Positions 10,161 through 51,450 of a stretch of 64,000 nt of DNA are shown piece by piece (position 1 is the stretch's first letter; every line of letters begins with the position of its first letter). Location of the stretch: contig CM075101.1 of the NCBI GenBank assembly GCA_037576195.1, positions 5,084,001 through 5,148,000 on the forward strand, in the 5' to 3' direction. The notes beneath the pieces are model-generated. The model made no database searches, was not told the origin of the DNA, and was given only the letters and a program-made list of their open reading frames with translations. Position numbers and translations under genes: made by a program. Origin of the DNA: Phytoseiulus persimilis (lineage: Eukaryota; Arthropoda; Arachnida; Mesostigmata; Phytoseiidae).

Positions 10161-13100
10161 CTGAATGTTGGAGGTGATCATCGTCGACTGTTTCTGCCCC
10201 TCCCAGTGACAAGGGAGAGGGGCGTCACCACTCCGACGACACCTGCATCTTAGACATTTGTGATTTCCACAGCGATGACAAATGAACGTGCATTCGTATT
10301 CACAAACTTGATAAGATACAAGGAGGCAGGACCTATGAAAGGATCCTCCCGAATCGGAGCGAATCCTTCTCATAACATGCCGAGGGCCAATGTTTGATAC
10401 CAGATTCTGGCCGAATCAATCAAGTGATTCTTGCCTTGCGGTGGTTGGTTCTGATAAATTTGTTGCTGTTGCTGCTGCTGATGGGTCTGCTTGCTCTGGG
10501 GAGCGGTCTGGGAGGCGGCAGACTGTGGCAGCTGCGGTAACGCTGGAGGTTGAGGCGGCGGTACCGCAACAGGACCTTTACCGATGGGGTGACAGTGGAG
10601 ACCTTTGGCTGGTCCCAGTTTGACGGTCATGTTGTTGAGATCAGTTTGCGAAGCGAACCGTTGCCGGATCCCTTTCACAGAAGGTCTCCTAGCGAAACCG
10701 AAAGTCGGGTCCTCCTCTTCAGTAACGCTGTACCGCTTCCTGATCCGTTCAGACCTAAGTTAGAAAGTTTCCACATCTGAAGTTCGTTAAGGACATCGCG
10801 ATCGAGCTATACAGCTCCATTGAAAATATCGGAGAGACGCGAAAACGGGAGAAATGCTAACCGGTCCAGTTCTTGCTGGTTCTGATACTTCTCGAATTCT
10901 TCGTATTCGCATTTCGCGTCTGCCCTGTGTTGCTGCTGTAACGCTTGAGCTTGTTGGATTGCCTGCAGAGAGTAAGGAACCCGTGACCGAGGTTTGGACG
11001 TCGGAGCGGCACGAGTCTTCTCACTGATCTACCACGATGGTATCCGCTCGCACGGTACCGCACCAGCGACGGAATGTACCATTCCTAAGATGAGGAGCGC
11101 CCTCGGGCGAGAGCATTGATGCTTACCTGCTGCTGCGCAGCGTGGATTACCGCCTGCTGCTGCTGCATCTGCATCTGTTGCAAGGCGATTTGGTTTTGGA
11201 TTTGTTGAACAGCAGCCTGCACCACCGGCGGAGGCGATGTGGCCGCCTGTATAGTGTGTTGTGTCTGAGCGAGCAAATGTGCGTTTGCAGCTTGCAGATG
11301 CTGTCCTTGATGGGTTTGATTTGCTGCTGGGGGCGTCGGCGAGGAAGACGGTTGAGGTGATGAATGTCCCGCGGGCAGCTGCACCGTCAATTGTGACGTC
11401 ATGGAGTGATACTGCATGTTGGCTGGAATTGGGAGTCGAAAAAATCTAACCAAACACGCGAAGAGCATCGTTGCCGGTGAATTCGCAATCCCCCCGTCCC
11501 TCGAAGACTGGGTCCTATTCACTGTACCTGGTAAAGTGGCGTACTGATGCTGCAAAGTGATCTGAATCTGTTGCATCTGCTGCAACTGATGAGTCGGGAT
11601 GGGCCGCCTCAAGTCTCCGGGGTATGCCTCGCCCGGGATCCGTCGCAGCATACGATAGTCTCTGGGCACGATGGGAATCATCTGACCGCCGCCTCCGCCT
11701 ATCGGCCTCCCGTTCTCGTAGTAAATTGGACGACCGGGAATGCCGTTCCGTTGCTGTTGCAGCTGTTGTAGTTGCTGTTGCTGGAGTTGCTGCTGTTGTA
11801 AATGTTGTTGTTGTTGCTGCTGCTGCTGTTGTGAATGTTGTTGTTGCTGCTGCTGCGGCTGTTGTTGCTGCTGCTGTAAATGTTGCTGCTGTTGCTGTAA
11901 ATGTTGCTGCTGTTGCTGTAAATGTTGCTGCTGTTGCTGCAAATGTTGCTGCTGCTGTAGTTGTTGTTGCTGCTGGAGCTGTTGTTGTTGATGTTGCTGC
12001 TGCTGCTGTTGAGGGGGCTGCTGAGTTTGTTGTTGAATTTGTTGAGTATGTAGGGGAAGATTCATGTAAATCTGTTGGCTTGTGGGAGTCGGAGATGACT
12101 GTGGTGCCAGGTTCTGGGGCGTCGGGGGTATCGGAATCGTTCTAATATAGTTCTTGGCTGTGTTGATCTGGAACATTTATTAGACGCGAAAAATTAGACA
12201 CTGAGCTCGAATGATCTGATTTGCCCTAGAGATGTTCTGAATAACGATAGATTCACTCACCGGCTTCTGAGCTGCAGCGATTTGAGCATTGCTTATTCCA
12301 CTATCGTCCGTCGAAAGCCAACGCATCTTTTCATTGAGCGCGTCAGAGCTCTGACCCGGGCTAGGGTTAGCGGCCCCAGACTGATTGACAGCGGGCGACT
12401 CCTGCTCTGGGACGCTGTTTGAATGGAGGATAGTCCTGCGAGCGTTGGTCACGTGATTCTTGCGTACCGAATTACCTGAGCTGACCGACCATGTGTCATC
12501 ATCATCCTCCTCGACGTAGCTGGAACGGTACGATAGGGGATTCGCTCAGGTTCCCGAAGCTAGTACGCGACTTCCGCTGAAGACTTTTGTGAACACGGGT
12601 CAACGCACGCGAAACACGAGTGCTCAACTCCTTCTGAACATGCCCATCTTCAAGATGACCACTTAATCACTCACCCATCATCTAGTTGCTCTTGCGGCGG
12701 CTGGGCCGGCGGCTGCGGTTGACTCACAGATTGTGACAGCCTGTGCTGCTGGAGTTGTTGTTGCAGCTGCTGTTGATGCTGCGCCTGCAACTGCTGAAGC
12801 TGCTGCTGTTGCAGATGCTGCTGATGTTGTTGCTGTAACTTCTGGTGATGCTGTCTCAACAGTTGCTGCTGTCGTTGTTGAAGCAGCTGCTGCTGCTGAT
12901 GCGCATGTAGCTGCTGTTGATGTTGCTGTTGCAGTTTCAGTTGCTGCTCATAGAGCGTGGCGGAATTCTCACTAGCCTCGGAGCTCGAAGTCGGTAGGCC
13001 TGAGTCCGTGTTGCCGGTGGCTGGGCCCTCGCTTGAGGAAGAGCTAACAGAATCCCGATCCGAATCTGTTACCTTGTTCACTGCAACTTCTTGATCTGTG

Positions 13101-50720: not shown

Positions 50721-50728
50721 ATCTCGAG
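50721..50728. repeat. Left target-site duplication ATCTCGAG
   Basis: Identical to the 8 bp immediately after the right end of the element. Confidence 0.92.
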
Positions 50729-50739
50729 CAGAGTTGGGC

Positions 50740-50994
50740 AGATTCGAATCATTTTGATTCGAATCGTTGGATTCGAATCAGATCGCATCAGATGTGATTC
50801 GAATCGTCCTGATTCGATAGCTTCTGAGTCGAATCATTCTGATTCGAATCATTTCTGATTCGAATCAAGTGATTCGATGATCCTGATTCGAATCATTTTT
50901 GATTCGAACCAGAGGATTCGAATCATGTTCTGATTCGAATCATTTTCTGATTCGAATCATTTTCTGATTCGAATCATTTTCTGATTCGAATCCC
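50740..50994. repeat. Left array of GATTCGAATC palindromes
   Basis: About twelve exact and four variant copies, with spacers of 3 to 12 nt. The last few have a regular ATTTTCT spacer, which suggests local tandem duplication. Confidence 0.9.
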
Positions 50995-51045
50995 AACTAT
51001 ATATGATCGGCTTAGTTTGTCAGTTTGTCCGCACATTACTTTCCA

Positions 51046-51190
51046 ACTCTGGAGGGGTGATTCCGAGACCAATCTAGCCATTACTTCCCAACTCTGGAGG
51101 GGTGATTCCGTGACCAATCTGAGCATTACTTCCCAACTCTGGGAACTACTGGGAAGTAATGCTCAGATTGGTCTCGGAATCACCCCTCCA
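51046..51190. repeat. Central hairpin of the foldback element
   Basis: A unit of about 53 bp (ACTCTGGAGGGGTGATTCCG, then GACCAATCT and CATTACTT) occurs twice in tandem on the left. It then meets its inverted copy (TGGGAAGTAATGCTCAGATT onward) across a loop of about 14 nt, giving a near-perfect stem of about 43 bp. Confidence 0.88.
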
Positions 51191-51244
51191 GCTTTTGAAA
51201 AGTATGGTCAGACTGGTCCCGGACTAAGCCGAGTATATGTAGTA

Positions 51245-51430
51245 AGGATTCGAATCAGAGTGATTCGAATCGTGTGATTCGAATCAGATGATCGATCCTG
51301 ATTCGAATCAAAATGATTCGAATCACTTTTGGTTCGAATCAGCCTGATTCGACGGTTTTTGATTCGAATCACTTTTGATTCGATGTTTTTCGATTCGAAT
51401 CAGGTGATTCGAATCAAAGTGATTCGAATC
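51245..51430. repeat. Right array of GATTCGAATC palindromes
   Basis: Nine exact copies and three variants, with irregular spacers. Confidence 0.9.
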
Positions 51431-51442
51431 TGCCCAACTCTG

Positions 51443-51450
51443 ATCTCGAG
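51443..51450. repeat. Right target-site duplication ATCTCGAG
   Basis: Identical to the 8 bp immediately before the left end of the element. Confidence 0.92.

Follow-up and report, generated by a model that had tools for sequence, protein, structure and literature searches.

Transposons of the hAT superfamily are bounded by short ends of 10-25 bp, and miniature inverted-repeat transposable elements (MITEs) of hAT type are known (PMC3942097), mar in Drosophila being one (PMC3517528). Hermes prefers nTnnnnAn targets, leaves 8-bp duplications and has BED domains that bind a subterminal quasi-palindrome (PMC10368747). Two further systems tie non-autonomous elements to satellite DNA. Tetris of Drosophila virilis is a non-autonomous foldback element with internal tandem repeats, an end shared with the MITE DAIBAM and a link to satellite DNA; its authors suggest Mutator (duplications of 8-10 bp), and its satellite arose from its arms (PMC4079207). 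A review of MITEs with internal satellites presents miDNA4 of Xenopus tropicalis, which lies in a Tc1/mariner MITE, as a satellite source (PMC9659126). Here we describe a hAT-type foldback MITE in a 64,000-nucleotide stretch of the mite Phytoseiulus persimilis (GenBank assembly GCA_037576195.1, contig CM075101.1, positions 5,084,001 to 5,148,000; hereafter the window), whose arms are arrays of a single palindrome and whose core is satellite DNA that looks to have come from another mobile element.

The element occupies 714 bp (50729-51442), begins with CAGAGTTGGGCAGATTCGAATC, ends with GATTCGAATCTGCCCAACTCTG and is enclosed by two exact copies of ATCTCGAG; the interval 50721-51450, proposed as a mobile element by an earlier reading of the letters alone (the sequence-only reading), is this element plus both duplications. 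That reading had claimed inverted ends, an exact 8-bp duplication on either side, a lack of coding capacity and a fully foldable interior. The first three claims hold: the outermost 22 bases of each end are perfect inverted repeats in the window copy, ATCTCGAG stands at both flanks, and the sole stop-to-stop frame of at least 80 codons lying wholly inside the element (108 codons, 50951-51277) has no match in Pfam. The claim of a foldable interior stands in a refined form. The DNA fold of the element strand reaches -241.7 kcal/mol, far below that of shuffled versions (-90.3, standard deviation 4.69; n=20; z -32), and the structure that folds consists of palindrome-array arms around a core of different DNA, itself made of inverted pieces. 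The longest ungapped outer pairing runs for 54 nt at 89%, a count that takes in three flanking bases per end, and the inner arms pair through arrays of one palindrome. Long inverted arms built of repeats, together with strong self-folding, make this a foldback element; being short, non-coding, multi-copy and bounded by terminal inverted repeats, it is also a MITE.

To how many places has it spread? The host genome spans 181.0 Mb (127 contigs). With up to three mismatches allowed, the 22-bp end matches it at 97 forward and 96 reverse sites, against none on either strand for a reversed control, and a query with the whole element returns at least 176 matches (40 of 1540 candidates scored). We picked 40 loci from the end and whole-element match lists and added the window copy; 39 of these 41 are two-ended, with lengths of 60-1441 bp, and 36 of the 39 have perfect 8-bp duplications. 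A larger tally takes in 49 loci with such an end; 44 of them show both ends, and in 40 of these 44 the duplications are perfect. This tally starts at L009 (L001-L008 repeat loci already counted) and excludes L084, a right-end catch from a sister family; at L010, L054, L065, L071 and L072 one end only is present within the stretch read. Note that, because loci were picked for matching ends, conservation of the ends is not to be taken as selection. The sequence-only reading had named other copies with different 8-bp duplications as its confirming check, and this is what the 40 of 44 provide. The family that it thought possible in this genome is dispersed, numbers dozens of copies and has duplications that differ from copy to copy.

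Two observations support insertion as a unit. First, L034 and L043, 99.75% identical over 813 bp, occupy two loci with different duplications (GATTGTAC versus CTTCACGC). Second, when flanks were joined without the element and compared with the loci read, one copy, L064, proved to have a paralogous empty site: the duplication TTCCACAC is present twice in L064, and its joined flanks align with L010 1318-978 over 345 bp at 89%, continuous across the junction, with a single TTCCACAT and no element. Two weaker junction-crossing alignments (L042, 73% over 214 bp; L049, 36 bp) were set aside. A sceptic might hold that nothing here is mobile and that we are looking at a tandem-repeat or microRNA-like hairpin region, as the strong fold and a number of sub-threshold Rfam microRNA matches would allow. 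However, all 44 of those matches fall under their gathering scores, and dispersed copies with distinct duplications together with the empty site are decisive, so that we give this explanation virtually no credence.

The copies are mostly well diverged: for 36 of them the identity to the best partner has a median of 89.0% (range 82.2-99.75%). A second close pair, L063 and L067 (97.25% over 800 bp), again has differing duplications, and near-identical copies in different duplications indicate that part of the movement is recent.

Terminal inverted repeats of hAT elements have a CAG consensus; P elements, too, produce 8-bp duplications, and Mutator-like duplications are about 9 bp or longer. The family has an 8-bp duplication, T at position 2 in 32 of 40 duplications and A at position 7 in 32 of 40, matching nTnnnnAn, and short CAG...CTG-type ends, with the 12-bp CAGAGTTGGGCA at both. 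The hAT assignment made by the sequence-only reading fits the duplication length, the end and the target pattern alike, and we are highly confident that this is a non-autonomous foldback transposon (MITE-type) of the hAT superfamily, set apart within that known kind by its palindrome-array arms and captured satellite core. Might the foldback element belong instead to another superfamily, such as the Mutator-like or P/Galileo-like elements? The 8-bp duplications of P elements leave room for this, as does the fact that a coding partner is not known here. Yet 40 of 44 copies have duplications of exactly 8 bp, shorter than Mutator-like ones, the preference for T2 and A7 and the CAG...CTG 12-bp end point to hAT, and CAGRGGTGGGCA ends are seen on intact hATs of this genome; we consider another superfamily very improbable. 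For a hAT MITE, established hAT biology suggests that a transposase made elsewhere would cut at the 12-bp ends, and that insertion would proceed with an 8-bp stagger at nTnnnnAn-like targets.

Where, then, is the mover? The PF05699 profile has at least 145 genome matches (150 of 444 candidates scored), and we read the surrounding DNA at 21 of them; other listed end sites were compared by eye with hAT-domain matches, among the matches listed. Several observations sit uneasily with the hAT assignment. Duplications carry mismatches in four of 44 copies (one each in L029 and L042, two each in L035 and L069), and T2 and A7 occur jointly in only 21 of 36 duplications. The autonomous hAT with the same ends for which the sequence-only reading had recommended a search was not found: no autonomous hAT with CAGAGTTGGGCA ends was recognised among the 21 of 145 hAT-domain places read. 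At L009, L010, L011 and L074 a CAGAGTTGGGCA end does lie near a hAT domain, in arrangements that look like neighbours or a nested insertion. Finally, the intact hAT that comes closest differs from the MITE at one of 12 end bases and has a TA target pattern of its own. An open frame in L074 resembles a hAT remnant to the eye, but we do not claim it as one (no Pfam hit at E 0.1; best phmmer match E 0.76, against the open frames of 20 loci).

That intact hAT is 2.45-2.49 kb long, ends in CAGAGGTGGGCA/CAGGGGTGGGCA and has six copies (L012-L016, L024) that are 98.3-99.8% identical. Its frame of 626 residues, in which Pfam recognises the hAT dimerisation region and a zinc finger, is open in five of the six and lies in two pieces in L016; a sequence search up to E 1 found no relative of solved structure. 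In its own right, this nearly identical family looks recently active. That it also moves the MITE would be in keeping with 11 of 12 shared end bases at its CAGAGGTGGGCA end, with the near-identity and open frames of its copies and with its domains. Against this, animal hATs commonly have CAGRGGTGGGCA-type ends, the six loci contain no GATTCGAATC, the palindrome of the MITE arms, and TA occupies target positions 4-5 in five of seven hAT copies versus five of 36 MITE copies, numbers that are small and in which the seven sites include the more diverged L009 (TA on one side only; flanks differ in L009 and L012). Because of this difference in targets we doubt that the 626-residue hAT is the mover and think it unlikely to be. 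Among other hAT loci scanned, four of 13 have a candidate end pair, CAGTGGCGTA for example, and nine of 13 have none.

Both arms of the MITE are arrays of the palindrome GATTCGAATC. Pooled over 39 copies there are 754 exact palindromes, while a further 114 deviate at one position and 13 at two; all 21 of the 21 exact sites in the window lie inside the element. In these copies the commonest distance between successive exact sites is 14-17 bp, and smaller classes lie near 24-31 and 44 bp. The genome has 593 places where two GATTCGAATC palindromes stand 4-7 bp apart, and 49 of 50 among the matches listed fall in known end-matched copies. One-mismatch palindromes cluster by position, but many copies each have the commonest forms about once, so that these palindromes look inherited and do not count as independent evidence.

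Are the palindromes under constraint? Over 31 aligned copies, leaving out the ascertained 22-bp ends, the palindromes have a mean pairwise diversity of 1.7%, compared with 5.3% for arm spacers and 4.3% for the core, and none of 327 circular shifts is as low. In columns at least 97% occupied the contrast is 0.3% versus 7.3% in spacers (2 of 32 shifts as low). In columns at least 90% occupied, however, it shrinks to 1.8% versus 2.7%, and 30 of 122 shifts are as low. We regard constraint as suggestive, keeping in mind that alignment of repeat arrays can mislead. The arrays may be subterminal binding sites, either for a transposase DNA-binding domain or for a host protein, and we put the chances that they are so bound at about even. 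Of the candidates, binding by the zinc finger of a hAT transposase is preferred because Hermes BED domains bind a subterminal quasi-palindrome; the weakening of the diversity signal at 90% occupancy tells against such a role.

Three other ideas deserve mention. An origin of the arms as an inverted duplication of one half is doubted on the strength of alignment scores: the left arm in the window scores 94.2 bits against the left arm of L069 versus 68.0 against its right arm, and the right arm in the window is undiscriminating (60.8 vs 57.2). One copy, L030, consists of arms only (374 bp) and might represent the state before capture of the core, with deletion between palindromes as likely. A tRNA B box (GGTTCGAATC variants) was rejected, the common form having A at a position where a B box requires G; ARAGORN, run with the bacterial code, found no tRNA in the window, and six loci (L018, L069, L075, L077, L078 and L079) yield no Rfam match at gathering.

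The core (about 50993-51246) consists of two pieces, inverted relative to each other, of a separate satellite-bearing repeat, which is built from a 45-bp unit containing CAGAGTTGGGAAGTAATG and ends in a tail such as GCGGACAAACTGACAGACAAACTGACAAACTGACAGACTAAGCCGATTATATATAGTAAGGATA (L077). Querying the genome with 24 bases of the unit gives 23,634 forward and 22,476 reverse matches (46,110 at up to three mismatches, MITE units included; none on either strand for the control). If each match represents one 45-bp unit, the satellite makes up about 2.1 Mb or 1.1% of the genome. Arrays read in whole or in part contain 48 (L075), 42 (L076, plus one in reverse), 29 (L077) and six (L078) recognised forward units, and GATTCGAATC is absent from all four.

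The repeat looks like a mobile element of its own, with its own 5' end, to judge from its boundaries in the genome sequence. Its 5' boundary pattern has 283 forward and 299 reverse matches, its 3' boundary pattern 203 and 190 (MITE cores included). A 161-base query placed over the 5' end matches at 94-100% in all 40 scored of 910 candidates, the query included, and 27 of the 40 matches start at query base 18 or 19. The tail is reminiscent of RTE-type retrotransposons. As each MITE copy holds about four units, the great majority of the 46,110 matches lie outside the MITE, and, since the units are those of a separate mobile element that has a 5' end of its own, the MITE looks like the receiver. 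A plausible sequence of events is that the satellite-bearing element came to lie between the arms as a passenger, was rearranged into a head-to-head inverted pair before most sampled copies spread, and varied in unit number thereafter. At present, 16 of 39 copies have three units one way and one the other, four have none and the maximum is nine plus one; in the divergent copy L069 a long one-directional array retains a 5' boundary still recognisable by eye.

Two side observations concern the unit itself. Both in the window (51034-51142) and genome-wide it contains CAGAGTTGGGAA, which is identical to the MITE end at 11 of 12 bases. At L018:4220-7000 one frame of a 45-bp array is free of stop codons and encodes 15-residue repeats over at least 927 codons, as far as the array was read; its openness probably follows simply from the unit length being a multiple of three.

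Coordinates of the MITE and its parts in the window
Feature	Position	Strand
Left target-site duplication ATCTCGAG	50721..50728	
Left terminal inverted repeat CAGAGTTGGGCA, 12 bp (22 bp including the first palindrome)	50729..50740	+
Left arm, GATTCGAATC palindrome array, 12 exact	50741..50992	
3' tail of the satellite-bearing element, inverted; reads TGCGGACAAACTGACAAACTAAGCCGATCATATATAGTTGG on the reverse strand	50993..51033	-
45-bp minisatellite unit, about 2.4 copies, reverse orientation	51034..51142	-
Central hairpin, 81-nt arms 81% complementary, 14-nt gap at 51136-51149	51055..51230	
Forward piece, partial 45-bp unit DNA, then the same 3' tail (GGACTAAGCCGAGTATATGTAGTAAG)	51150..51246	+
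Right arm, GATTCGAATC palindrome array, 9 exact	51247..51430	
Right terminal inverted repeat TGCCCAACTCTG	51431..51442	-
Right target-site duplication ATCTCGAG	51443..51450	

The same or a related end also bounds other MITEs. With A, C or T as the next base, the 12-bp end is present at 34 forward and 35 reverse sites (control 2 and 7), and CAGAGTTGGGCATRATCATGR has 109 and 113 matches at up to three mismatches (control 1 and 1). We observe here additional hAT-type MITE families with such ends and ATCATGAT-like arms (L082-L088; C1:2484165-2484958). Sister arms carry ATCATGAT/ATGATCAT-like repeats, and TTCGAA is absent from six of seven sister cases and present once in L088. Three of the seven paired cases (L083, L085, L086) have perfect 8-bp duplications, one has a single mismatch, one has two and two have three. 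Among these families one, L086 (ends CAGAGATGGGCG; near-full-length relatives at 96-97%), clearly contains satellite-related DNA, 193 bp at 76% (E 6e-34), going by similarity; elsewhere such DNA appears weak or absent, with 60 bp at 83% in L084, just 29-31 bp in L082, L083 and L085 (E 1e-6 to 1e-4), no match at E 1e-4 in L087 and L088, and none in the 360 bp tested of L081. At L079, where one end is seen, satellite DNA begins about 90 bp inside a ATCATGAT-type end. The sequence-only reading had missed three things: that the arms are palindrome arrays, that the core is captured satellite DNA and that sister families share the end.

It is tempting to combine these pieces into a modular system, in which one 12-bp hAT end would be coupled to interchangeable palindromic-array arms (GATTCGAATC or ATCATGAT-like), a mobile 45-bp minisatellite would have entered at least two family cores, the arrays would be selected as multi-site binding platforms for transposase or host factors, and the satellite, at about 1% of the genome, would spread together with the MITEs in a single package. 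We offer this as a speculative scheme that is rather more likely wrong than right. What we have is a well-replicated hAT-type foldback family in which ends (shared across families), arms (family-specific) and core (a foreign mobile element) are separable. This makes it possible to test how far MITE sequence outside the ends affects transposition, and in what way mobile minisatellites and DNA transposons contribute to one another in satellite building. Elsewhere in the window, an imperfect TGTTGC-rich tandem repeat with periods of 21-42 lies at 11750-12011.

We met no description of the element in the open literature on hAT foldbacks, satellite MITEs and mite genomes, a scope that takes in few subscription papers and none of Repbase. 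It resembles Hermes and hAT MITEs such as mar and BuT2 of Drosophila in its 8-bp duplications, nTnnnnAn targets, subterminal repeats and short ends, and its GATTCGAATC arrays are comparable in position to the subterminal repeats of Hermes. Unlike in Hermes, mar and BuT2, the subterminal region is on either side a long array of a single palindrome, and the core is captured satellite DNA. With Tetris it shares the foldback form with tandem repeats, an end common to other MITEs and a tie to satellite arrays; in contrast to Tetris, the satellite units sit in the core and most units in the genome lie outside the MITE. Like miDNA4, as the review portrays it, our case places satellite units within a MITE, but here the units come from another mobile element, and the MITE looks like their receiver.
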